This document shows, one piece after another, positions 19,361 through 33,960 of a stretch of DNA of 64,000 nucleotides. The notes under the pieces are model-generated. The model was not told the origin of the DNA. It saw only the letters and a program-made list of their open reading frames with translations, and searched no databases. Location of the stretch: assembly GCA_036971615.1 (NCBI GenBank), contig JAYKKR010000032.1, positions 248,001 to 312,000 on the forward strand, written 5' to 3'. The stretch comes from Amyloporia xantha (taxonomy: Eukaryota > Basidiomycota > Agaricomycetes > Polyporales > Adustoporiaceae). The position numbers were made by a program, and so were the translations under genes. How positions within the stretch are numbered: the stretch's first letter is position 1; the number at the start of each line of letters is the position of its first letter.

Positions 19361-20151
19361 TGCAAGTCGCTAGTTTATCTGGTGAAATTTCATGTAAAGT
19401 AGTAAGAAATACACCGTCCTAGAAACTGGTGTTGCCATATATCTACATAGTAAGTGAGGGGAGGCTCACTTATGTAGTACATACTACTTGTACAAGATGT
19501 TCTTTGATATTTTTATCATGCATTGCATACCCAACCGGCTATATCGCTTAATACGATACGCTCAAGGGATGAATGCTGTAGAGCTGCTGCCATGGACGCG
19601 CGCTGATACGACCTACGAAACCCTAACCCCTAACCTGGGTGCGACCTAAAGGGACTAGAGAGACGAATTATAGTCTTAGTGAGAGGGGAGTTAGCAGCAA
19701 GGTGTCCCGCGGTTCGAGTGAACACGAGAAACGCCTTCGAAGAGGCTACGAAGACTAGGGAACGATACGATGTAGCTCGACACGTCGTCGAAGCTACTCG
19801 AAGACTGTAGGTAGTTAGCGGGACTCGGTAGAGACGATCGAAGCTCGATAGAGCTCTTCGATGTATCGTAGAAGGAATAGAAATGATTCGAAAGGGAGGA
19901 CTTAGCTATAACGCGGTTCGAGGCGCAACGCAGTTCTTCGGCGGTAGTTGAAGGCGATCGTAAGATCAGAGGTTCGTTGAAACGGTATCGACGAACAGAC
20001 ACAGTAACGAGGTTTCGAAGTAACGCAGCGAAGAACGAAGTGACGCAGTAGAGGACTTTAGACGCAGGGCGAACTCGACTTATGAGCTCTGAACTCGAGG
20101 GGGAAAAGGAACTTGTATTTGGGAGAGAAATACGACATGTTTTATACTACG

Positions 20152-20340
20152 ACACCAACTTATGTATACCTGGTGCACCAACTGACGGATAGGCCTACGG
20201 ACGGTTATGCACCAGGCAGCGCTTCTGCCTGCCCGCTGGTGCATCAGTTCCTGGGCTATCTCCGGACCCTCCGGGGCCTCCTCCCTTTCGCCGTAGGGTC
20301 CCCTCGGCATCACGGCTTATTACCATATGTAGTAAGTATC
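20152..20340 (+). repeat. Left terminal inverted repeat of foldback element
   Basis: Begins ACACCAACTTATGTA and continues through GGTGCACCAACTGACGG to GGCATCACGGCTTATTAC. It pairs with 23505-23695 with only about ten mismatches over the conserved 165 bp. Confidence 0.85.
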
Positions 20341-20499
20341 TATTATAAAGGCCTTAATCTACAGCGAAATTTGTATTTTGATGCCACAGACTCATTTGGG
20401 CACTAAAAATTGTATTAAAATAGGGAAAAAATAGATTTTTAATTTTTCTTCAGTAGCTACAGGCTACAGCAATACAAATATGAAACATTGTAAATAACG

Positions 20500-21480
20500 G
20501 GGGGCGAGCCAGCGTGCGAGCGCAGCTCGAGCGAGCGCCGACGGGGAACCGAACGTAGCCGGGGACCGGGCGAGCGAGCGGGGGCAGGGAATCGAGCGAG
20601 CGAGCAGGGGCGGGGTTCGAGCGAGCGCGGACAGGGGATCGAGAGAGCAAGCAGGGGCGGGGGAGCGAGCGCGGGGGAAGCGAGCGCGGATCGAGCCAGC
20701 AGGGGCGGGGGAGCGAGCGCGGATTGAGTGAGCGAGCGCGGACGGGGAAGCGAGCGCGGACAGGGGATCGAGAGAGCAAGCAGGCGGGGGAGCGAGCGCG
20801 GACAGGGGATCAAGAGAGCAAGCAGGCGGGGGAGCGAGCGCGGACGGGGAAGCGAGCGCGGATCGAGCAAGCAGGGGCGGGGGAGCGAGCGCGGATCGAG
20901 CGAGCGAGCACGGACGGGGGAGCGAGTGCGGATCGAGCGAGCGAGCACGGACGGGGGAGCGAGCGCGGATCGAGTGAGCGCGGATCGAGTGAGCGCGGAT
21001 CGAGTGAGCGCGGATCGAGTGAGCGCGGATCGAGCGGGTCGACGGCGGGGCGAGCGAGCGGGGAGTGGGCGAGCGAGGGCACTGACGGGCAGCGCAGGAC
21101 CGATGGATGTGCTGGGGCGAGCACTAGCTGGAGCCCGCTGACGCCGTTGAAGGAGCGTCCTAGCAACAGCGCGGGGAGCGTCTGAGCAATGGGGGAGGGC
21201 AGCGTCACAGAAACGGGGAGAGTAGCGTCGGAGCGACGGGGAGGGCGGCGTCGGAGTGATGGGGAGGGCGGCGTCGGAGTGACGGGGAGGGGAGCATCCG
21301 AGCGATGGGGCGGGGAGCGTCCGAGCGATGGGGCGGGAGCGTCCTAGAGACGGGGTCGTGCAGCGTCGGAGCGACGGGGAGAGGAGAGTCCTAGCGAGGG
21401 GCGGGGAGAGAGTCGTGCAGCGTCGGAGCGACGGGGAGGGTAGCGTCGGAGCGACGAGGAGGGGAGTGTCCTAGCGACGG
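20500..21480. repeat. GC-rich minisatellite, left arm
   Basis: Purine-rich on the plus strand. Irregular tandem units are built from GAGCGAGCGCGGA and GGATCGAG words (20500-21050), then CGTCGGAGCGACGGGGAGG-type units of about 20-30 bp (21190-21480). The six-frame translations are low-complexity (RGSERG-type or PRSLPRP-type) and are not genes. Confidence 0.85.
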
Positions 21481-22439
21481 GGAGGGGGCATCAAGATAGG
21501 TCAGTGGTGTGAATACTACAGAAGGAAAAGAAAATGTTACTCACTTTTGAACACTGCTCACAGGCAGCAGCGGGACGACGACGACGCCGTCGTCGTGGTC
21601 GTCGTCGTCGAGCAGACACGAAAGCTGACGCGTCACCTGTGGCAGTCCGGGAAGTGCCGGCTTACCAAAACGGGAAGGCGTCTTAAACGTCTAACATTCG
21701 TCTTATGCATATTGCGAGTATCACTATGCTCTCAATAGTAGCTAAATCCTCCTAAAAATTCATATTAGAACAGTAAAGTAGTATTAAAATAAGCTCACCA
21801 AATTTGAGGGATGCAGGATGAAGAGTGCATGTACAGGGAGAGTCCCGAGTCGGCCGAGGCCTTGCGCAGCCAATCAGGTGGCGCGCTCAGCCAGGCGCGA
21901 CTCGATACTCGAAACGTTCACTAGCCTGCTTACACGGCCGTTTCGAACATCGCGGCCGCAAACGGTTACCTATCCATACCAAACCTAGACATAGTTTATT
22001 ATTATATACTCTACATTACAAATTCTATTTTATTCTACTATTGCATGGCTTAGTCCTACCAAAACATGCCAATCTTTCGGTTATTCTGAAGCCAAAATAG
22101 ATATGTTTTGTTTATAGCTCTCCAAGGAAGTGCAGGAACATCAAAAAAACTCACATATATACTTTTATATATATTCTGAGTACTCTACATGTCTTATGTA
22201 CGAAATATATTTGCTCAGGATGTTCGTACTCACTATTCAGCGCGAGTAGGACTTCAGCCACATGCCCAAATCGGGCATTTCGGCTGTTCCCGCACTGCGC
22301 GCCAACAGCGCCGCGTCACCGTGGGTCGTCTCCTCGACGTCGTCCACGGCGTCGACGACGTCCCGCTGCTGCCCAAGAGCAGCGTAATATAGTAAGTTTT
22401 CTATATTTCTTTCGTATTCTTTGGTTGCTGACCGGCCGT

Positions 22440-23340
22440 TTGCAACCGCAGCCCGACAGCGTACGTTCCGACTCCCCTGCCGACGCCCCTGCCTGCTCGA
22501 CGTCCGCCTCACGCCCACCCGCTGCACGCTCCACGACTCCGCTGCCCGCTGGCCATCCCTTCTGCGCGCTGCCCCCTGCGCGTACACGCTGCCCCTGCCG
22601 ACCGTCCACGCTGCGCCTGCCCGTGCAGGCTGACCCCGCCCGTACTCGCTGCGCGTACACGCTGCCCTTGCGCGTACACGCTGCTCCTGCGCGTACACGC
22701 TGCCCCTGCCCGTACTCGCTGTCCCCGCCCGCACACGCTGTGCCTGCCCGTCCCCGCTGCCCCTGCCCTTCCGCTGCACCCCCGCCGCTCGCCCGTCCGC
22801 TGCACCCCTGCCCCTCGCCCGTCCCGTCCACTGCTCGCCCGCCCGCTGCTCGCCCGCTGCACGTCAGCACGCCCACTGCATGTCAGCACGCCCGCCGCTC
22901 GCTCGTCCGCCGCTCGCTCGTCCGCCACTCGCTCGTCCGCTGCATGCTGCGCCCCCCATCCACGCTGCGCCCGCCCGCCCATGCTGCGTGCTGCGCCATG
23001 CACGCTGCCACGCCCGTACACGCTGCGCCGTGCCGCACATGCTGCTGTGCACGCTGCCCCTGCCCGTACACGCTTTCCCCGCCTGTCCACCGACTGTCCA
23101 TGCTGCCCCTACCCGTCCGCTGCTCGCTCGTCCGCCGCTCGCCGGTACACGCTGTGCAGCCCCGCCTGTACACGCTGCCCCTGTGCGTACATGCTGCCCC
23201 CGCCGTATATGCTACCCCTGCCCCCGCCCATGCACGCTGCCCCTGCCCCCGCCGTACGCGCGGTCCCCGCCGGTACGGGTTGCCCCCGCCGTACACGCTG
23301 TCCCCCCGTGCGCGCCACCCTTCCCTTCGCGCGCCCGCGC
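22440..23340. repeat. GC-rich minisatellite, right arm
   Basis: Pyrimidine-rich on the plus strand, mirroring the left arm. Units of CGTACACGCTGCCCCTGCC and CTCGTCCGCCGCTCG type run for about 900 bp. The long frames here (up to 313 codons) consist only of CPCRPSTL/ARTRC-type repeats and read open on both strands, as expected for a satellite without stop triplets. Confidence 0.85.
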
Positions 23341-23504
23341 ATTCGCTGGAGTATTACCGTATATAGATTCCCGTACCGCTGTACCCGTAGCTACTGAATC
23401 AAAAATAAAAATCTGTTTTTATTACCATTTTTGTACATTTTTCGGTGCCCAGGTAAGCCTGTGGCACCCGAAATATATATTGCACTATAAAAGTAATGAC
23501 CCAG

Positions 23505-23695
23505 AGCTGTAGCTACCAGATATAGTAATAAGCCGTGATGCCGGGGGGGCCCTACGGTGAAAGGGAGGAGGCCCCGGAGGGTCCGGAGGTAGCCCAGGAA
23601 TTGATGCACCAGCAGCCAGGCAGAAGCGCTGCCTGGTGCATAACCGTCCGTAGGCCCATCCGTCAGTTGGTGCACCATTAGTACATAAGCAGCTG
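23505..23695 (-). repeat. Right terminal inverted repeat of foldback element
   Basis: Complement of the left terminal repeat. It ends GTACATAAGCAGCTG next to the second ACTACG target copy at 23696-23701. Confidence 0.85.
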
Positions 23696-24235
23696 ACTAC
23701 GAAAGGAACGCTACGACTATCGAGAGTGGCACACTAGTACGAGTGGCTTTGTATTGTCCTACACGAGTCCGCCTCACTGAGTGGCACATATCGAGTCCAT
23801 CGGTCGAATGACATCATGCCGAACGCGGAGATGAAGAGAAACATACGAGACACTTCGGACCGATATCCGTCGTCGAAGGCACGCCGCGAGGCTCGATACC
23901 TAATCGGGAAAGACCGGATGCGTCGGTGTGGCACGAAGCGATGCACGCGATGGACGAGCGGCGTCGAGGGGCTCTATTGTTCGCCGAATGCGGAAGATGG
24001 TCCTGGATCTAAGAGCGAGGCCTCGGAACGACCGCACCGAGCTTCGAGCAAGCGTAGCAAACGGTCGAAGACGTCGAAGAGTGTCGAAGGGTACTGGGCG
24101 TCGGAAGTAACGTGCGTAGCATCGAAGGACGTCGAAGGCGAAATCGAAGACTTGGGTGACTGAGCCGAAGTGCCGGGCGGGATGCGAATGCCGAAAAGAG
24201 CTGTATCGGGGCCCAGAGGGGCTTGGCGCCTATCA

Positions 24236-24270
24236 TCTCCTCCTTATTGAAATTTGGACCGTCCTCGGTC
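24236..24270 (-). other. 3' polypurine tract of the retrotransposon
   Basis: On the minus strand AATAAGGAGGAGA abuts the 3' LTR (TGATAGGCGCC). This is the expected site for plus-strand DNA priming during reverse transcription. It is preceded by CCGAGGACGG and CAAATTTC. The same block recurs inside pol at 27729-27762. Confidence 0.8.
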
Positions 24271-24380
24271 CTCCACGTGATGCGAGAAGCGTGATGATCG
24301 TGAATGGATCGAAGCGGCATGGCAACCCGTGTCGGTTTCGAACGCCTCGTGGTCGGCGCTAAACGCTGGTCGAAAAGGGG

Positions 24381-24387
24381 ATATAAG
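24381..24387 (+). promoter_or_regulatory. TATA-like box for the antisense gene
   Basis: ATATAAG lies about 90 bp upstream of the ATG at 24475, outside the LTR. A pyrimidine-rich leader (24405-24470) follows it. The position suits a Pol II promoter driving the plus-strand gene independently of the LTR. Confidence 0.4.
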
Positions 24388-24474
24388 CAGGGTGGACTTA
24401 GCCTCATTTTCCCCAGTCCATCGTTCCTTCGTCGCCACCCTGCCGCACTTTCTCACATACTCGCTGCTTCCAAT

Positions 24475-25843
24475 ATGTCTGCTCCGTCGACAACTTCTCG
24501 TTCCGCTACTCCGGCGGTCGCCTCGCGCTCCCAGCGCGCTCTCGAACGACTGGTCAAGGCCCTCGATAACCCGCCGACCAACGTGGAGGCCGTAGAGGTC
24601 TTCGAGGCATGGGCGCAGGACGTCGTGCCGCTGTTGGTAAGTGATGCAGCCCTTCGAAGTCTTCGTCGACTCATCGCTTTCCAGGATACGTACCGCAAGG
24701 CCCTCGGGTCGATCACTGACGCCGAGCTCGAGGGTCGCGTGACGACGGTTGTCGGTGAACTCGCCGAACGTGCAGTGGAGTCGTGGTTGGGATGGGCTCG
24801 CCCCGACTGGCCGGCCCTTGCCAGCGCAATCGACGCGGTCCTCAAACGCCGCGCCGACGAAGCAAAGCGTCTCGCCGCCGAAGAGGAACGGCGTCTCGAA
24901 GAGGCTCGTAAACGTGAACAGGCCGCCGAAGCCCGTCGCCTGGACGACGAACGTCGAAGGAAGGCTGAGGAAGAACGTCGCGAGCAAGAGGCTGCTGACG
25001 AGGAGCTGGCGCGAATCGCCGCCGCCGAAGGACTCGTCGAAGAGCCCGCGCCCGTAGGTTCGAAGGGGAAGGAGCGAGCGATCGACGATGACGACGTCAT
25101 CGAGATTTTTGACGTGAGTCCACTTGTTTTTCGTCTGTTTCTTCGACTCGAAACTGACTGCGTTCCTTGCTCGTAGAAGACTCCCAAGGCCGCCGAGCGG
25201 GCGCTGCCAATGGTCGAGGCGGAGAGGGCTGCGATCGCCCTGGCGAAGCGACAAGGCGGCCAGAAGGTGCGTTCGAACGTCTTTGTCCACTGGTTCGTAT
25301 GCTGATACTTTGCCCGTAGTGCGACCGCTGCGTTGCTTACCGTAGCGCACCCGTCGAGTGTGTGTGGGTCGACGGCTCCGTTTCGTGCGAGAAGTGCACG
25401 CAGACGGTCCAGGGGTGCTACTACGACGGGGTGAACGTCCTCGGAAAGACTAAAAAGGCTCGCAACGGTGGGGGCTCGAAGAAACGCGGTAAGTCTTCGA
25501 TGGAGGAGGTAAAATTTCGACTAATCGTATTGCCTGTGTAGCTCGTCCGCCGTCGCCGGGTCCTTCAACTGCTGGTTCGACGAGTTCGAAACGTCGCCGA
25601 GTGCCGCTGCCGAAGCTGGCCTTGCCGCTTGACGGTGGTAGCCGACTCGGCGTCGAGACCGACGACCTCGACTCGATGGATCTGACTCCACACTCGCGCG
25701 CCATTGTCCGGTCGATTCGGGAAGAACGGGCCCTTCTCGAGACGCGTATGAAGGTCCTTCGCGACGTCGACACTCACCTGCAGCAGATGGAGGAAGCTGC
25801 GCTAAAGGGGGCGGACTTCGAGCCGGTCTCGGACGATGAGTAG
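24475..25843 (+). CDS. Spliced antisense gene carried by the retrotransposon; Zn2Cys6-like and coiled-coil protein
   Basis: Five exons on the strand opposite gag-pol, between pol and the 3' LTR, with GT-AG introns at 24637-24684, 25114-25176, 25267-25319 and 25499-25541. The first is a multiple of three without a stop, so it is optional. The protein is about 350 residues. It has a helical N-terminus (RALERLVKALDNPPTNVE), a charged E/R/A coiled coil, an acidic patch (DDDDVIEIFD) and a cysteine cluster C-x2-C-x9-C-x8-C-x2-C-x6-C (from CDRCVAY to KCTQTVQGC). Basic KKxKR-type signals and a C-terminal helix ending SDDE at 25843 follow. The cluster resembles a fungal Zn2Cys6 domain with a longer first loop. 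I do not know the family. A nuclear nucleic-acid-binding role is inference. Introns on this strand survive retrotransposition because the genomic RNA is the other strand. Confidence 0.75.
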
Positions 25844-26310
25844 GCGATTGCGCAACTCGTTTTTTGTAGATAGTCGTAGCGTCGTAGCGTGTCGTGTTGA
25901 GTATAGGTGGAATGAAAATGTGGCCTGCATGGCCTAGACGAAAAAACTGTGGGAACTAAAGAAAAGGAAATAAGCATGCTCGAAGCAACTAGTAACAAGA
26001 TAGAAGGGAATAGCATCTAAAATCGAAGCGTTCGTAGAGGAAGAATATAAGGACTTAAATGAAAATATAGGCTCAGTTTGTCATCACAGCCTAGGAGGAC
26101 TCGTCTAAGGTGAGCCTCCACGCAACGGTCGAATCGAAGCGTTCGTAGAACGTCGAAGGGATATCGCGACTTTCGAGTTGAATCGAAGTAATCGTACAAT
26201 GGAGAATCTAGATCGTAGGAGAAAATCAAGCATATAGCGTAACATGAGAGCAGAAACGGAGAGAAGAAAGTACGCATCGTGTTGTACAAGTAAGAAAAGT
26301 GGGAGAACCT
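25844..26310. other. Spacer between the convergent antisense gene and pol
   Basis: About 470 bp between two stop codons (25843 and 26311). AT-richer than the flanks, with no frame of interest. It presumably holds the 3' ends of both transcripts. Confidence 0.5.
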
Positions 26311-29300
26311 CTATTCGTCGTGTTCTTCGGCTTCTTCGACTTCATCGTCGTCGTCGTCGCCGAGAGAATTCGATAGTTCGAGTTCTCGAAGGCGCTCTGT
26401 CGAGACATCTTCGAGATCTTCGGGAATTGGGATGGATTTTCGAGCGAAGTATGGAATGACGCGGAAAGCTGCGATGGGTCGATCGAGCACTGTACCGTCG
26501 AGCTCGCACACGATGTACGCGCCGCCCTTGTTGCGCGAGACAACGATGAGGGGGCCTAGATATCGCGGGCGCATCTTGCGGTTGAGAGACTTCTCGATCT
26601 TCGTGTTACGTATGAGCACTAGAGCTCCGCGTTTGAAATCGAAATCCTGGATTGAGTGCTCGTGCTCCTTTTCGAAGCGAATTGCGGCAGTTCGACGTGC
26701 TTCGTAGACCTTCGAATGGAGTTCGGTGACTTGCTCGACGCGTTTCTGGAGCGCGATGGCTCGTCGGGCGATGAGGTCGGTCGTCGAAAGGATCGAAGTT
26801 GGCGGGGGTTGGAGATACGTGGCTTCGACGATGTCGAGGGGAATGAGGGGATGGGTGCCCGTAACAGCGAAGTATGGTGAGCAGCCCATGCGTCGTCGAG
26901 TAGTGATGCGCTCAGACCAAAATACGAAATACGCAGCTTGAGACCACTTCTTCTCATCTCCATCGGCTGTCTTGAAGAGAGCTTGCCGCGTGCTGAAGTG
27001 CGGACGTTCGACGAGACCGTTCGCCCTCGAATTGTACCCACTGATTCGAATATGATTGATGTGGTACTTTTTCGAAAGGTAATCGGCCGCCTTGATGAAC
27101 GCCGTACCGTTGTCGGTGACAATCTCGCTGAGCGCGCCCCATCGACAGAGGATATCTTCGAAGATCCAATCGGCGAGGGCCTTCGCAGTCTCTTTTCGAA
27201 GCATTCGAAACTCGGGGTAGGTCGTAAGCGAACATCTACCTTGGACCAAGTACTTGTATCCGCCCGAGGCAGGCATGTGCATTGTGTCGATGTGAATTTT
27301 TGCGAAGATGGGGGCTGGTACTGCGACGGTCGGAGGGATAAGGATTTGTCGAACTTGACGAGACTGGCAGATATGACACGATCGAACGAACCAGGCGATG
27401 TCGGCGTAGTGGAAAGGCCACCAGAATCGCTCGTTGACGAAGGCTCGGGTCGCGTAGATTCCTCGATGCGCGGTGCGGTCGTGACATTCTCGAAGAATTC
27501 GAAGTCGATCGCCAGGCTTGACGACTAGCTTGTGAGCGCCGTGACTGTCTTTGCGCCAGAGGGTGTCGTTGTCGAGGAAGAATTGCATACAATACTTGAT
27601 GAACCCTTCGTAGACGCTGTCGGAGATGTCGTCGGGTTTCGCTAACGTTCGATGAAATTCGAGGACGTCGTCGAGCTTCGCGTCGGCGAGTTGCGCTTGC
27701 TCCGATCGAGGCACTAGCTCGTAGCTATCCTCCTCCTTATTGAAATCTGAGCCGTCCTCGGCTCTGTCATTGGTTAAGATGGCAAGCGAAGGGACGGGTG
27801 GGAGGGGCTGAATCTGGTGAACGAACGAGTGCATTTGGTCGATCCAATCGTCGAACTCTTCGTTGATCTCGTCTTCGATGATATCGCCGGGCTGAACCGT
27901 TCGTCGAGAGAGGCCGTCGGGGCCATGCATCGTACCGGGGACGTGGACTAGCGTGAAGTGGAATGTGAGAATCGAAACGATCCAGCGGTTGATACTCGCG
28001 CTGGGTGCTATGTCGGGGTTCTTTAGCATACCCTTGATATACCGCGCATCGACTTCGACGATTAAATTTCGAACGCCGATGAGGTAGAGTCGAAGGGATC
28101 GAAGCGCACGAAAGAGGCCGTAGATCTCGAGTTTGGGCTGCGAGAATCGACGTTCGCGGTCGTTTAACGTAATCGAGCCGAAACGGTTGTAGTATCGAAT
28201 GCGGGTGTTGGCTTCGTCGCATTGGCAGAGGTGATATCCGACGGCGATGAACGAGGTGTCGACTGCTAGGATGACGGGGGAGGGGGAATCGTAATTAATG
28301 GCTCGAAGGGCGGGGGAAGAGAGTAGCGCGTCCTTGAGATCTTCCTGCGCCGCGATTTGCTCCGGACCGAACTCGAACTCGACGTCCTTCCTCGTGAGTC
28401 GTACGAGCGCGTCGGCGCGGTGAGCGAAGTTGCGGATGAAGATACGAACGACGCCGATGGTTCCGAGGAACGCTCGAACGTCGGAAAGTGTAGCGCAGGG
28501 ACCCCAATTGCGTATCGAGGCGACGCGAGAATCGTCGGGAAGGCGTCCTTGAGGAGTGCAGCGATGTCCTACCACCATGATTTCTCTGGCGATGAGGACA
28601 CTCTTGACTCCGGAGAAGGTTCCTCCTGCGTAGCGCATTCGAGTGACGACGCGGTTCATGTTCTCGAAGTGCTCCCACACGAATCGTCGAATGCCATGGT
28701 TCGAAGGGAGTCGTTCGTCGTCGTAGTCTGATTCGGGACCTTTGACGGGAACGTCATCGACGTAGGGCACCGTAACGTGCGGGATCTCGGGCTGGAGGAT
28801 GTACGTGACGTCGTCGTGGAATATTGGGACCGAGTTCGTCCAACCCATCGGGAGCGTGACTAGCCGCATGGCTCCGTAGGGTGTCTGGAACGTCGTAAGG
28901 TCCCTCGAAGACTCCGCGATGAGTCGTTCGTCGTAGCCGACGTAGAGGTCGAGCATGCCGCCGCATGGTCTTCCTCCGAATTGTTCTGCGAGATATTCGG
29001 GCGTCGGCGGAACACCGGAATGTTGAATTGTGACTGCGTTGAGGGGCTCGAGGGAGTGAACGAGTCGAAGCGATTTGCCGTCCTTCTTTACGACACAGAA
29101 CCAGCGCGATCGATACGACGAGTTCGAAGGTTCGTAGACTCCTGCGGCGATCTTTCGCTTGATCACCGCGCAGACCTCGTTGTAGATCCCGGGCGGAATG
29201 GGGATATTCTTCTGCACCCAGGGCGTGTGAGGAACGACGGGGAAATCGACGGGGGGGAAATACTCGGGCTTGAAGCATCCCCGCTCGTCGTCGGTCCATG

Positions 29301-29967
29301 CGAAAGCTTCGTTGTGCAGGCACATGAAATGGTGGAGGACTCGACGCTCGTCGGGCAGCAGGAAATCGCCGTCGTGAAGCTTCTCGGTGGTTTCGAAGCG
29401 TTCGAGGGTGTATCGACCGGTAGGTTTGAACGGCGGGGGGTCGGTCGAAAGCTTCGGCATGATAGATAGAGGGTCGCCCTTGATGTCCCGAAGTATTCGA
29501 AATTGTTCGGGGACGGCACCAAGGACGGGTCGGGTCTTGAGAGCGACGGGCTTGTACTTTTTCTTCGTTGCGGCGAGTATCTTGTGCGTCGAAGATGTCG
29601 AAGTCGAAGTCGTCGAAGGAAAAGGGAGAATCGAGTTGGAGAACTGGGAGAGGGACTTCGTTGGGACGGGAGCGGGCGGAGTCGAAGCGAACGGAGCTGA
29701 GAATAGAAGAGTCGAAGCCCACGTCGAAGCGTTCGACGGGGCGGCATTAGAAGCTGTAGAGTCCGCGGCGTAGCGAGACTGTAAATATGAAGAGACTGAG
29801 GTGCATGCGGAAAGATATAAGGACGAAACAGCGTTCGGAGTCGAGGAATCAATAGGAGAGACGAAGGAAATACTCGGTGTTACCCCATCGTAGTCGATGA
29901 CTAGCGCGGCTTCTCCTTGATCATGGGGAATCAATTCCTCGAAGCGAGAAAATGCGACTTGCGACAC
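26311..29967 (-). CDS. pol: Retrotransposon Pol: reverse transcriptase, RNase H, integrase
   Basis: An uninterrupted frame of 1218 codons. After an S/T-rich linker, the RT domain (about residues 260-480) has WFCVVKKDGKSLRLVHSLEP, GGMLDLYVGYDERLI, FQTPYGAMRLVTLPMGWTN and VPYVDDV with the YVDD box. RNase H begins near AVDTSFIAVGYHLCQ and passes LEIYGLFRALR and VEVDARYIKGML. Integrase has an H-H-C-C zinc module (CHDRTAHRG to CHICQSRQ) and the catalytic acids in HIDTMHM, VTDNGTAF and GLVERPH. The C-terminus is very acidic (DDDDDEVEEAEEHDE), and I see no chromodomain. The frame is shifted by -1 relative to gag and overlaps its end. Nothing is broken, so the copy could be active. Confidence 0.93.
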   Translation of the reverse strand: MSQVAFSRFEELIPHDQGEAALVIDYDGVTPSISFVSPIDSSTPNAVSSLYLSACTSVSSYLQSRYAADSTASNAAPSNASTWASTLLFSAPFASTPPAPVPTKSLSQFSNSILPFPSTTSTSTSSTHKILAATKKKYKPVALKTRPVLGAVPEQFRILRDIKGDPLSIMPKLSTDPPPFKPTGRYTLERFETTEKLHDGDFLLPDERRVLHHFMCLHNEAFAWTDDERGCFKPEYFPPVDFPVVPHTPWVQKNIPIPPGIYNEVCAVIKRKIAAGVYEPSNSSYRSRWFCVVKKDGKSLRLVHSLEPLNAVTIQHSGVPPTPEYLAEQFGGRPCGGMLDLYVGYDERLIAESSRDLTTFQTPYGAMRLVTLPMGWTNSVPIFHDDVTYILQPEIPHVTVPYVDDVPVKGPESDYDDERLPSNHGIRRFVWEHFENMNRVVTRMRYAGGTFSGVKSVLIAREIMVVGHRCTPQGRLPDDSRVASIRNWGPCATLSDVRAFLGTIGVVRIFIRNFAHRADALVRLTRKDVEFEFGPEQIAAQEDLKDALLSSPALRAINYDSPSPVILAVDTSFIAVGYHLCQCDEANTRIRYYNRFGSITLNDRERRFSQPKLEIYGLFRALRSLRLYLIGVRNLIVEVDARYIKGMLKNPDIAPSASINRWIVSILTFHFTLVHVPGTMHGPDGLSRRTVQPGDIIEDEINEEFDDWIDQMHSFVHQIQPLPPVPSLAILTNDRAEDGSDFNKEEDSYELVPRSEQAQLADAKLDDVLEFHRTLAKPDDISDSVYEGFIKYCMQFFLDNDTLWRKDSHGAHKLVVKPGDRLRILRECHDRTAHRGIYATRAFVNERFWWPFHYADIAWFVRSCHICQSRQVRQILIPPTVAVPAPIFAKIHIDTMHMPASGGYKYLVQGRCSLTTYPEFRMLRKETAKALADWIFEDILCRWGALSEIVTDNGTAFIKAADYLSKKYHINHIRISGYNSRANGLVERPHFSTRQALFKTADGDEKKWSQAAYFVFWSERITTRRRMGCSPYFAVTGTHPLIPLDIVEATYLQPPPTSILSTTDLIARRAIALQKRVEQVTELHSKVYEARRTAAIRFEKEHEHSIQDFDFKRGALVLIRNTKIEKSLNRKMRPRYLGPLIVVSRNKGGAYIVCELDGTVLDRPIAAFRVIPYFARKSIPIPEDLEDVSTERLRELELSNSLGDDDDDEVEEAEEHDE
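27729..27762 (-). other. Second (central) polypurine-tract-like copy inside pol
   Basis: On the minus strand this reads CCGAGGACGG, CTCAG, then ATTTCAATAAGGAGGAG. It differs from the 3' tract at 24236-24270 at about three positions over 34 nt. It lies in frame between RNase H and integrase (peptide AEDGSDFNKEEDSYE). Its position recalls the central polypurine tracts of Ty1 and lentiviruses. Function is inferred from similarity alone. Confidence 0.55.
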
Positions 29968-32231
29968 CCGAAAGGATGCTGCTGGCTTCGCGATCTTCCT
30001 CGCGCGTATGTCGGGATCGTAACCGTTTCGCCGGTGTTCGGACAGAGGATGGTGATCGTCTGGTTCTCGTCGGCGAAGTTCTTGACGACGCTCTGCGTGA
30101 GCACGTCGAAGGGTCGACCGAGGAGAATGTCGTAGGCTGCATTTCGAATAACATGAGCCTGGAGATATAGTATGATCTCACCGATGCGGAAGGGAACATT
30201 GCGAATGAGTCCCAACGATCGGTCCACTTCGCCGTTCGCGGACTGCATGTTTAGCTGGATCGTAGGATCGAAGAGAAGGTTGAGACCAAGGCAGATCTCT
30301 TCCGACATCGCGACGATTTGCGAGCCGGGATCGACGATGCATTCGATCTGCTCCTTGTTGTCGATCAGAGCAATGATCGAACGGATCGCGTTCGAATCCC
30401 GGGCGACAGTGAATTCTGCGGGATATTCGCCTTGGGGGACATGCTTCAAGTACGTTTCGTAGGGGTCGGGGACGATCGTAGCACCGGGTTCCAGCGTCGC
30501 GCCCGAACACGAGAGCTGGTTGATCGAGATCACCTCGTCGTCGGCGACTTCTACGATGTGGGCCGACGCAACGGGTTCCGTCGAGACTCGCTTCGGGGTG
30601 ACGGCGTCACGGTACTTGGTTCGAACGTCCGGCGCGATCGAAAGCAACTCTTCGGGGGTCAGCGTGACGAACTGCGATTTCATCGAACGTTGGAAGATTT
30701 CCTCGGCGAGCTTCGGCTGGATGATCGGGACGATGGTCTTGTACGCTGGTTCCTTGCCCTTGTCGTTCGAGGGCTTCGGCGGTGTGGCGAAGTTTCGCAC
30801 GTTCGGCGGGGCGTAGGTTGCGTCGCGAGCGTTTGCGAAGGGGTGTACTGGTGGTGCGGGGGGAGCGGACGTAGTAGGTTGCGACGTGGGTTGCGTGGGT
30901 GGCGAAGAAGACGACGAGGGTGCTGCTGCTGGTATTGTCGGAGGCGGGGCCATGCTTGTCGAAGTGCTCGAGGGTGCCGCCGCTTCCTTCGATGTACCAG
31001 AGCCTGATGCTTCCGCGTTCTTCGGGACTGCCGTCGTCGTAGGTTTCTTCCGCTGCAGAATCTCGACGCCGTCGAAGACCTCCCTTCGCTTCCGAAGCTG
31101 AAGGAGTTCTCGTTCGAGCGCCTCGATCCTTCCGCTGGTGTTGAGCGTGAACGTCTGCACGGTCGATCGATCGTCGATCTCGAAGAGCATCGTCGGAGCT
31201 GCGGGTGCTGCTGGGTTTCTTCGGTGCCATTCGTATATTCGATCGCGTATCGTAAGACCAGGGATCGTTCGGGGGCAGAAGCTACCGTTCGGAAGGACGA
31301 TCTTGCCTTCGGTGTTTCGCTTGCACTTGCCTTCCCGAATGTCGATCGCCGCGAACTCGCAGGTGCCTACCCTGCAGCCACGATTGCCGCAGTAGTGGCA
31401 TGTCTGCTCGGTTTCGCCGTTTTCGTGTACGTGGACGTGGGCGGCGGCTTGTTGTCTCGGTGCGGGGGCGTGGTTGTGCGTTGCATGCGTCGTCGGCTGA
31501 ATGAGCGTTGCGATCGTCTTCGACAGGCTCTCGATGATCATCGAGATGTCTTCGGTCTTGATCATCCCGGGGGGCACCGTGGTAGAAGCGTTCGATGTCG
31601 AGGCGATTGGCTGGTTAGCCGCTGTCGTAGGGGTGCTCGAAGTACCGTGTAAAATGAAGGTCGCCGCCGCGTGAATCTCTGCCATGGTGTACGGGTCGTC
31701 GGCGTAGTGATCGGGGTGCTTGAGATGGAGTCGAGTCTCAAGCCGCGTGAGCAACGCTGGCTGGAATCCTCGAAGAAACGCGCGACTTTGTTCGATCGTC
31801 GAGAGCCGATTCTGTGCAATGAGGTGCTTCGTGATGGCCATGAAATCGCGGTAGTAACAGCCTAGATCGGCCGCGTTGTGAATTCCGATACGAGCGCGCT
31901 CTCCGATGAGCTGATCCATGTCTGCCAGCGACCATTTTCTTGTATCGTTGGCGCCAGGATAGAGTGCTCGTACGTCTGCTTTCCATTCGTTGTAGCTCTT
32001 GTTTACGTCGACGAAGGACTCGATGGTTTCCCACAAGTCGGCGACGTCGATCGAAGGGTACCGAATGGCCCACTGTTTCTTGGCCGCGTTGTCGGTAATC
32101 TGACACCGGGCGAACAACGCCTCGAGATCCTGGAAGTAACGCCGAAGCGAACGGACTTCCGACGGGTCGAAGCTCGGTGCCGTCGAATGACCGCGCGGGG
32201 GCATCAACGGTGGGTTCGCGTTCTGACTCAT
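29931..32231 (-). CDS. gag: Retrotransposon Gag and aspartic protease
   Basis: An open frame of 766 codons from ATG 32231. The capsid-like region (residues about 20-170) includes LRRYFQDLEALFARCQI, WETIESFVDVNKSYNEWK and SRAFLRGFQPALL. A nucleocapsid-type knuckle near residue 290 reads CHYCGNRGCRVGTC, with cysteine where the usual CCHC histidine is expected. It is followed by the family's GKCKRNTEGKIVLPNGSF block. After a proline/serine-rich linker comes a retropepsin-like domain with active site IVDPGSQIV (DPGS rather than DTG/DSG) and YDILLGRPF. It ends at 29931 inside the start of pol, so Pol is probably made by -1 frameshifting or re-initiation. Confidence 0.88.
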   Translation of the reverse strand: MSQNANPPLMPPRGHSTAPSFDPSEVRSLRRYFQDLEALFARCQITDNAAKKQWAIRYPSIDVADLWETIESFVDVNKSYNEWKADVRALYPGANDTRKWSLADMDQLIGERARIGIHNAADLGCYYRDFMAITKHLIAQNRLSTIEQSRAFLRGFQPALLTRLETRLHLKHPDHYADDPYTMAEIHAAATFILHGTSSTPTTAANQPIASTSNASTTVPPGMIKTEDISMIIESLSKTIATLIQPTTHATHNHAPAPRQQAAAHVHVHENGETEQTCHYCGNRGCRVGTCEFAAIDIREGKCKRNTEGKIVLPNGSFCPRTIPGLTIRDRIYEWHRRNPAAPAAPTMLFEIDDRSTVQTFTLNTSGRIEALERELLQLRKRREVFDGVEILQRKKPTTTAVPKNAEASGSGTSKEAAAPSSTSTSMAPPPTIPAAAPSSSSSPPTQPTSQPTTSAPPAPPVHPFANARDATYAPPNVRNFATPPKPSNDKGKEPAYKTIVPIIQPKLAEEIFQRSMKSQFVTLTPEELLSIAPDVRTKYRDAVTPKRVSTEPVASAHIVEVADDEVISINQLSCSGATLEPGATIVPDPYETYLKHVPQGEYPAEFTVARDSNAIRSIIALIDNKEQIECIVDPGSQIVAMSEEICLGLNLLFDPTIQLNMQSANGEVDRSLGLIRNVPFRIGEIILYLQAHVIRNAAYDILLGRPFDVLTQSVVKNFADENQTITILCPNTGETVTIPTYARGRSRSQQHPFGCRKSHFLASRN

Positions 32232-32856
32232 GTTTGCAGTGTTCGAAGTAGGAGAGGGGGCGTTCGAAGATGATCCGGGAACTGGAGGTACTACTGGAGC
32301 GGGGTTCGAAGAGGACGCGTTAGTAGTCGAAGGATTCGTAGGTGCGGGCGGTGCGGAGTTGGAGTTCGAAGCTGTGTTCGAAGGTGCCGATGCTGGCGGA
32401 GGTGCCAGGCTGGATGTAGGTACGACTGGAAGTCGCGAAGAAGATGCGATGGATGGCTGAGCGTGGGCGCGAAAAGAAGACGGAGTCGGAAGTACGAGAT
32501 TCGAAGTCGATGAGATGGGATCCTCGGGTTCGGGCGAAGATCCGGATTGATCGAAGAGATCGGGAGACGAAGTGGCGTAGTCGGAAGTAGTGAGTCCTAG
32601 AAGCTCGGGGACGAAGTGCGTTCTTCGGAGGTCGAAGGGATCGGTTCTTCGTCGAAGTCGTCCTGGAGTTCTTGGTCGATCTCGTCTTCTTCGTCGCGGT
32701 CGAAGTTACCGGGAATTGTCGGAGAGGGAGTCGAGAGTGTTCGAGAGGAGCTGTCGAGGTTTTCGCTGGCGCTGCGACTAGCAGCCTCACGCGCTTGCGA
32801 GCGGGTGAGTACTGGAGACGCTGAAACCCGAAAGCGGCGAATTCTTGCCTGAAATC
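32232..32856 (-). other. Gag leader with protein-like reading but no ATG
   Basis: Upstream of the gag ATG the same frame stays open to about 32710 and reads like protein from about 32605 (PELLGLTTSDYATSSPDLFD, then PPASAPSNTASNSNSAPP). Just above that the protein-like reading moves to another frame (NFDRDEEDEIDQELQDD), open almost to the LTR. A single missing base at GTCCCCGAG (about 32605) would join them. Neither segment has an ATG. This may be an old gag N-terminus lost by a frameshift, or a non-AUG leader. Confidence 0.45.
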
Positions 32857-32874
32857 CCCTCGCGGTGGGCTCCA
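32857..32874 (-). other. Candidate primer-binding site
   Basis: Four bases after the 5' LTR the minus strand reads TGGAGCCCACCGCGAGGG. It starts with TGG, the complement of a tRNA CCA end. I could not match the remainder to a specific tRNA from memory. Confidence 0.5.
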
Positions 32875-32878
32875 GAAA

Positions 32879-33960
32879 TGATACGACCTACGAAACCCTA
32901 ACCCCTAACCTGGGTGCGACCTAAAGGGACTAGAGAGACGAATTATAGTCTTAGTGAGAGGGGAGTTAGCAGCAAGGTGTCCCGCGGTTCGAGTGAACAC
33001 GAGAAACGCCTTCGAAGAGGCTACGAAGACTAGGGAACGATACGATGTAGCTCGACACGTCGTCGAAGCTACTCGAAGACTGTAGGTAGTTAGCGGGACT
33101 CGGTAGAGACGATCGAAGCTCGATAGAGCTCTTCGATGTATCGTAGAAGGAATAGAAATGATTCGAAAGGGAGGACTTAGCTATAACGCGGTTCGAGGCG
33201 CAACGCAGTTCTTCGGCGGTAGTTGAAGGCGATCGTAAGATCAGAGGTTCGTTGAAACGGTATCGACGAACAGACGCAGTAACGAGGTTTCGAAGTAACG
33301 CAGCGAAGAACGAAGTGACGCAGTAGAGGACTTTAGACGCAGGGCGAACTCGACTTATGAGCTCTGAACTCGAGGGGGAAAAGGAACTTGTATTTGGGAG
33401 AGAAATACGACATGTTTTATACTACGAAAGGAACGCTACGACTATCGAGAGTGGCACACTAGTACGAGTGGCTTTGTATTGTCCTACACGAGTCCGCCTC
33501 ACTGAGTGGCACATATCGAGTCCATCGGTCGAATGACATCATGCCGAACGCGGAGATGAAGAGAAACATACGAGACACTTCGGACCGATATCCGTCGTCG
33601 AAGGCACGCCGCGAGGCTCGATACCTAATCGGGAAAGACCGGATGCGTCGGTGTGGCACGAAGCGATGCACGCGATGGACGAGCGGCGTCGAGGGGCTCT
33701 ATTGTTCGCCGAATGCGGAAGATGGTCCTGGATCTAAGAGCGAGGCCTCGGAACGACCGCACCGAGCTTCGAGCAAGCGTAGCAAACGGTCGAAGACGTC
33801 GAAGAGTGTCGAAGGGTACTGGGCGTCGGAAGTAACGTGCGTAGCATCGAAGGACGTCGAAGGCGAAATCGAAGACTTGGGTGACTGAGCCGAAGTGCCG
33901 GGCGGGATGCGAATGCCGAAAAGAGCTGTATCGGGGCCCAGAGGGGCTTGGCGCCTATCA
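32879..33960 (-). repeat. 5' LTR, intact, 1082 bp
   Basis: Runs TGATACGACC...CTATCA. It is the intact twin of the split LTR at 19604-24235, differing at one position noticed (33276). It contains the telomere-like CCCTAACCCCTAACC at 32896-32910. No host gene lies inside; the 115-codon frame at 33541-33888 is LTR. Confidence 0.93.

Follow-up and report, generated by a model that had tools for sequence, protein, structure and literature searches.

Introduction

A stretch of 64,000 nucleotides from Amyloporia xantha (hereafter the window) contains an LTR retrotransposon which carries, on the strand opposite to its own genes, a further gene interrupted by introns. Such an arrangement raises the question of whether the gene was captured from the host or belongs to the element, and of what its evolution says about its role. 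An earlier note on this DNA had regarded it as a host-type gene, carried antisense, and knew of no fungal case with such a protein. Here we describe the element and its antisense gene, follow both through the genome, and weigh the explanations for the unusual diversity of the gene, a cassette-like feature that is absent from the earlier note.

Results

Anatomy of the element

The element occupies positions 19604 to 33960 of the window on the - strand and is of the Ty3/gypsy kind, with TG...CA LTRs, a polypurine tract (PPT), a PBS-like stretch adjoining the 5' LTR, and the order protease-RNase H-integrase. Its parts are as follows.

32879..33960, - strand: 5' LTR, 1082 bp, TG...CA (blastn of the two LTRs)
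29931..32231, - strand: ORF of 766 aa, gag (by position) and aspartyl protease (ORF list; Pfam Asp_protease_2 over cut-off)
26311..29967, - strand: pol ORF of 1218 aa, RNase H then integrase (ORF list; Pfam)
27730..27769, - strand: second PPT block within pol with a 6+6 dyad, possible central PPT (pattern search)
24237..24276, - strand: PPT next to the 3' LTR, with the dyad GGACCG-N4-CGGTCC (block search over copies)
23696..24235, - strand: part of the 3' LTR adjoining the antisense gene, identical to the 5' LTR (blastn)
19604..20152, - strand: other part of the 3' LTR, one mismatch (blastn)

The two LTRs differ at one base by blastn, in keeping with the earlier view that the element moved recently together with its antisense gene. 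GCGC stands at both flanks and may represent a 4-bp target duplication. An insert of 3.5 kb (20153-23695), which the earlier note does not mention, interrupts the 3' LTR; with inverted arms of 176 bp (91%), a duplication of about 7 bp at its ends and GC-rich tandem repeats, it resembles a non-autonomous transposon.

No gag domain was found by Pfam in the 766-aa ORF, whose gag label is taken from position, and the RT model itself was absent among the Pfam hits. The pol has own-family matches elsewhere in the genome at 93-99% amino-acid identity. The end of the gag ORF and the start of pol share 37 bp (29931-29967) in different frames, so that pol probably needs a frameshift.

The PPT block beside the 3' LTR is present in all 22 copies of the element described below, its dyad being altered by one base in L009, L017 and L020. 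The block inside pol, which together with its dyad is not expected at all by shuffles in the pattern search, was seen in 16 of the 22 copies, the others being partly read here, and in three further pol loci. Both blocks are followed by a perfect 6+6 dyad whose arms differ while both surround TCCT, and these two, whose CCG-N4-CGG cores start at 24256 and 27749, are the sole CCG-N4-CGG dyads of such kind in the 64 kb. The doubled block with its dyad could possibly serve as a central PPT, an RNA hairpin or a Leu3-like site.

The antisense gene and its predicted product

As the earlier note had it, the gene lies between pol and the 3' LTR, on the + strand where gag-pol is on the - strand, and consists of five exons with clean GT-AG introns.

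24236..24437, + strand: conserved putative promoter region of the antisense gene, TATAAGC near 24382 (copy comparison)
24475..24636, + strand: exon 1 (gene model)
24685..25113, + strand: exon 2, helical N-terminal portion with the long coiled coil (gene model; model of a Postia homologue)
25177..25266, + strand: exon 3 (gene model)
25320..25488, + strand: exon 4, six-cysteine cluster and basic stretch (gene model; copy alignment)
25542..25843, + strand: exon 5, basic (NLS-like) stretch, C-terminal helix and stop (gene model; helix in predicted model)

The frame runs from an ATG at 24475 to a stop at 25843 and, when spliced as predicted, comprises 383 codons without an internal stop; the four introns measure 48, 63, 53 and 53 bp, and all four are GT-AG. 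The TATA-like box noted before, TATAAGC, lies within the element about 90 bp upstream of the ATG and recurs in 22 of 22 copies, and the region around it is 91-98% identical to the window in all 21 other copies over 187-239 bp. Transcription of the gene would start from a promoter of its own inside the element and yield RNA antisense to the genomic transcript. The argument that antisense placement would let the introns survive retrotransposition also stands, since the genomic-RNA strand would not be spliced as the gene during passage through reverse transcription.

The only cysteines of the predicted protein are six that form a cluster with the spacing CX2CX9CX8CX2CX6C, and these are invariant in 20 of 20 aligned copies, type C (see below) starting with CX2CX8. 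Fungal Zn2Cys6 clusters follow CX2CX6CX5-12CX2CX6-8C. The earlier description of the cluster as Zn2Cys6-like holds for the six invariant cysteines and fails in the first loop, which has 8-9 residues instead of 6, and in the domain match: Pfam gave no Zn_clus hit for the window protein (E up to 1) or for the cluster piece alone (E up to 10), and Zn_clus is not among the 25 Pfam families listed for 37 relatives from Postia placenta, although UniProt labels 3 of 69 Postia relatives Zn(2)-C6. With its spacing off and no PF00172 match, we do not place the protein in the fungal Zn2Cys6 family. No relative of the cluster piece was found in the PDB. The cluster is probably metal-binding.

The coiled coil of the earlier note was borne out by the predicted model of a Postia homologue, which has a long helix at 92-172 with pLDDT above 90 at about 111-170; outside the coiled coil, the sole confident part, the model is weak (mean pLDDT 56). 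Together, the coiled coil, the conserved cysteines and the basic stretches suggest a nuclear regulator, which would most likely act on the expression or silencing of its own element.

Copies of the gene and selection on them

By DNA and protein search, the genome holds at least 22 copies of the antisense gene, including that of the window. In a tblastn-type search all 93 matches (70 of 70 candidates scored) fell within these 22 element loci. The LTR and promoter region adjoin the gene in 22 of 22 loci, and the end of pol, or part of that end, lies on the other side in 20 of 22; no gene copy outside an element was present among the 22 loci found. The description as a host-type gene is not supported, every locus adjoining the element's LTR. 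In its position, its orientation, its many copies and its coding conservation, the gene agrees with the antisense accessory ORFs (aORF-3R) of LTR retrotransposons.

By our judgement 14 of the 22 copies are intact (the window, L009-L014, L018, L020, L022 and L025-L028), where the call for L018 rests on an AAG acceptor and that for L014 on an open exon 2. The remaining eight (L015, L016, L017, L019, L021, L023, L024 and L029) are broken or truncated. Spliced alignment guided by the window protein placed introns at matching positions in most other loci; it misread intron 1 in L018 and L023, gave false introns in L014 and L016, and was meaningless for the interrupted L015. By eye, the accessory protein of L017 shows several arginine-to-cysteine or histidine changes together with a stop, as C-to-T decay would give. 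Three of the elements, L027, L028 and L029, form a tandem array at C6:290243-318851 of the same genome, seemingly sharing LTRs.

Compared with the window, dN/dS was 0.06-0.29 for the 19 other aligned copies, L015 and L024 being outside the protein alignment and the dN/dS analysis. In windows of 30 columns, where computable, the ratio did not exceed 0.20 within type A, 0.35 within type B and 0.41 over all types, and none of these windows revealed a segment with excess amino-acid change or positive selection. Substitution patterns thus show the antisense gene to be under purifying selection. The earlier note had named beforehand two outcomes at the sequence level that would refute it, the lack of a second gene-bearing element and a dN/dS near 1; with 22 loci and values far below 1, neither came about.

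A hypervariable cassette within a conserved backbone

Comparison of the copies revealed that divergence is concentrated in one block, which brackets the gene.

24416..25950, + strand: hypervariable cassette (identity profiles over copies)
25844..26075, + strand: region past the antisense stop where variability fades (pairwise identity profile, 19 copies)

Per 150-bp bin, the LTR, the promoter, the end of pol, the leader and gag match the window at about 83-100% (nine to ten copies contribute to the gag side), whereas bins of the gene match it at 50-98%, mostly below 90%; L015 drops off past the gene, where it has other sequence, and L017, L023 and L024 are without pol bins. The left edge is abrupt: from at least 92%, the mean identity between pairs drops to 50-81%, with 79% and then 50% at 24416-24455, which lies 35-55 bp past the TATA box and close to where transcription is predicted to begin. 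At the right edge it stands at 80-85% over 25925-26074 and at 90% or more from 26075 on, except for one bin at 80% (19 copies).

Median dS over 136 pairs was 1.56 in the gene vs. 0.23 in pol, a ratio that is rough, many gene values being near saturation, and with which the raw identities agree. The gene had the higher dS in 134 of the 136 pairs, and its dS was correlated neither with that of pol (Spearman -0.03) nor with LTR distance (-0.10). These pairs derive from 17 of the 22 copies, L017, L023 and L026 being left out for too short a pol stretch in addition to L015 and L024; the frame-break copies L018 (its first intron misread as a break), L019, L021 and L029 were kept. All windows of the gene show high synonymous divergence, at a fairly even level throughout, while the protein is conserved.

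Gene types and their exchange between backbones

From the protein alignment we named four gene types by eye: A (the window and nine others), B (six copies), C (four copies) and D, the N-terminal part of L018 and L023. The backbones do not follow these types. A single clade of type A was rejected by the AU test on the pol tree (17 rows, p 6e-8) and on the LTR tree (22 rows, 2e-54), as was a single clade of type B (pol 8e-8, LTR 3e-5). Type C is together on pol, but its three pol rows belong to one tandem array; two changes are required to account for its four rows on the LTR tree.

Individual pairs make the same point. L009 (type A) and L025 (type B) are 98-100% identical per 50-bp bin of pol from 26346 to at least 28150 (about 1.8 kb), against 38-78% per bin in the gene; L012 (A) and L024 (B) match at 98-100% throughout the LTR piece read, while their genes differ. 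Breakpoints also occur inside the gene: L021 and L022 start with about 200 bp of identical gene sequence and then diverge, L018 combines D with A and L023 combines D with B in a tree that includes Postia proteins, and L024 has, by eye, a B start and a C end.

The LTR pairs of nine further elements, with gaps uncounted, show 0-4 mismatches in eight and 21 in one; two of the nine belong to a tandem array whose neighbors share LTRs. Elements with low-mismatch pairs carry A, B, C and D genes, and hence elements of several gene types inserted recently.

We also considered a type-specific operator, in which the LTR or promoter would follow the gene type; the trees and the pairs sharing an LTR while differing in the gene contradict it. 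Co-variation of gag with gene type had a p of 3/210 on 10 copies and was weaker on more copies. By unverified position matching, gags at least 97% like that of the window occur in type A elements only (five including the window), but, by the same matching, different gags accompany L009, L012, L013 and L015, which are also of type A.

Homologues in Postia placenta and a related gypsy family

Among the matches listed, Postia placenta has 77 annotated homologues of the antisense protein (69 and eight more), and a protein search with an alignment of types A, B and C returned no species but Postia among the matches listed; each of these searches scored about 8,000 candidates, so that rarer relatives may escape. 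While several gene types occur in the A. xantha genome, the Postia proteins point to B: the best-scoring copy is the type B L019 or L021 for 76 of the 77, and the D-B mosaic L023 for the remaining one, P0066. All 15 Postia proteins sampled for a tree are nested inside type B. The cluster end motif is found in 67 of the 77, and the six-cysteine pattern is matched in 52. For pol, the Postia protein P0120 matches that of the window at 94% identity over 824 residues and at 90-95% in two further stretches. The comparison of the antisense proteins has a ceiling of 90%, which would fit two species better than a distant strain of Postia.

Interleaved backbones, near-identical pol in an A/B pair and the position of Postia inside type B, taken together, show that old and very different gene lineages have been swapped as a cassette between similar backbones by recombination, which may be template switching or gene conversion. 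We infer that the antisense gene is an old gene of the element.

Eleven loci of other gypsy families were picked from more distant pol matches. Four of them (L033, L034, L035 and L043; pol about 48-57% identical) have a canonical Zn2Cys6 spacing in an antisense frame past pol, and the other seven have no such cysteine pattern. The four loci are described from pol and the antisense frame, and some of the frames are broken. PF00172 gives E 0.03 for the cluster of this family, which falls short of the cut-off. Searched with a profile of the accessory protein, the frames of the other families showed no homology, the cysteine pattern alone being common. In pairs with L035, bins around the antisense gene are 78-93% identical vs. 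92-100% elsewhere; the other three loci differ little. No copy of the PPT dyad was seen near the one gene start inspected in this sister family.

Discussion

What maintains the diversity of the gene

Our preferred explanation is that the accessory gene is encoded by the element, as an antisense ORF between pol and the 3' LTR, that it is exchanged as a cassette, and that its diversity is held by type-specific regulation. The product would be a nuclear regulator of its own element, and selection would keep the types apart in that a rarer version escapes control by resident copies. To this explanation as a whole we give about an even chance, and in type-specific regulation as such we have moderate confidence. 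Several observations count against it. An arms race over specificity at the protein level would predict a segment with excess amino-acid change, and none was seen. LTR and promoter are independent of gene type, so that a repressor with an LTR operator for each type is not supported, and the listed Postia proteins, with their best scores to type B and one D-B mosaic, do not show several types. The protein evidence is also thin, in that Pfam and PDB gave no match for the cluster and the structural model is weak outside the coiled coil. Further, L016, L019 and L021, in which the gene is broken, were recently inserted by their LTR pairs; thus, a working gene in cis is either unneeded for movement or was lost at once. 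In a stronger form of the hypothesis, which we put forward tentatively and as less likely than not, the gene, in several old versions within an otherwise homogeneous family, would be a compatibility locus, polymorphic across species and freely exchanged, under negative frequency-dependent selection by which an element's own type is repressed and rare types escape. If this is true, the transposon would possess immunity groups, much as phages have immunity regions and fungi have incompatibility loci.

The divergence could instead be selected at the RNA level, with the antisense transcript annealing to the genomic RNA in its 3' part and feeding RNA interference, so that a diverged block escapes silencing in trans; nucleotide divergence itself would then be the target and the protein a separate trait. 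The start of the variable block some 35-55 bp past the TATA box, the high synonymous divergence in every gene window beside a conserved protein, and matches to Piwi and RdRP domains in the genome all fit this idea. However, gag and pol are without such divergence, and identical 21-mers are not depleted within types, their observed/expected ratio being 2.8 in A and 3.3 in B (1.06 in pol), with 12 seen and 6 expected between A and B, and 0 seen and 1 expected between these two and C. The excess is what intragenic recombination would give, and recombination could also hide avoidance; we regard selection at the RNA level as unlikely. Equally doubtful to us is backbone replacement free of special selection, in which a successful gag-pol-LTR lineage recently replaced others and took up the antisense gene from older resident elements by recombination. 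Recombination is evident and the backbones that were read are similar, with pol dS at most 0.32, in line with such a history, but no donor fossils were seen among the matches scored: pol matches step from 93% to 57% amino-acid identity and below (best 38 of 398), the LTR matches listed are all at 88% or more (best 40 of 120), and one gag relic stands at 86-88%. Moreover, the effect is limited to one gene.

A mutational hot spot in the gene block would account for synonymous divergence that is fairly even across the gene, and yet L009 and L025, near-identical over their 1.8 kb of pol, are at 38-78% per bin there, L021 and L022 stay identical over some 200 bp of the same block before diverging, and the mosaic pattern, the joint presence of Postia and A. 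xantha copies in type B and purifying selection all contradict it, leaving a hot spot hardly credible. Transduction of a host gene, for which the introns and the gene's own TATA-like box speak by their host-like look, is very improbable as well, given that no copy lies outside elements among the 22 loci, that a related gypsy family has a comparable antisense frame, and that the listed homologues come in many copies from one other species.

The gene's evolution offers a lead on the role of antisense genes in LTR retrotransposons, its versions being old, under purifying selection and interchanged on a common backbone, in a genome that has Piwi and RdRP matches. Module exchange among lineages older than the split from Postia would provide a natural way to test for mutual, type-specific regulation of transposon copies, and public polypore genomes and RNA data allow such a check.

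Comparison with known systems

Among the titles and abstract openings listed from the literature, with subscription journals thinly covered, none concerned a Zn-cluster-like antisense gene or its exchange between backbones. Antisense genes of such placement are nevertheless a known kind, including Grande and Retand in plants and, where the earlier note knew of no fungal case, brtn of the Boty element of Botrytis cinerea (Zhao et al. 2011, as cited in PMC7264820 and PMC8365987). According to the pertinent part of PMC7264820, the function of antisense genes in LTR retrotransposons is not known. Boty resembles the window element as a fungal LTR element with an antisense gene between pol and the 3' LTR; its host is an ascomycete, a Boty-like copy has a chromodomain, and the likeness that these accounts bring out is one of position.

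Gene23 of maize Grande (Gomez-Orte et al. 2013, as described in PMC7264820) is likewise antisense and located between pol and the 3' LTR, with its own promoter and a nuclear protein. It differs in its plant host, such proteins having no clear similarity to others known to that review, and the relevant passages of PMC7264820 make no mention of backbone exchange. The antisense ORF of Retand is a near-constant part of a gypsy lineage with possible DNA binding, as in our element; in contrast, it has a TRP28 domain and tandem repeats, and the corresponding passages of PMC11963269 mention neither a six-cysteine cluster nor gene types on a shared backbone. For HTLV, an antisense promoter in the 3' LTR is noted in PMC7264820, and HBZ is mentioned in PMC11963269.

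With fungal Zn2Cys6 transcription factors (PF00172) the window protein shares six cysteines, a basic stretch and a coiled coil; it is unlike them in the first loop (8-9 residues against 6), in the N-terminal side on which the coiled coil lies and in lacking a Pfam match. For plant elements, Macas is said to have described a hypervariable 3' UTR in 2009. HBZ of HTLV-1 is a spliced antisense gene for a bZIP nuclear regulator, with its promoter in the 3' LTR. The gene described here would be like HBZ in that a retroelement carries an antisense gene for a nuclear regulator, and unlike it in that the promoter would be internal to the element, beside the PPT.
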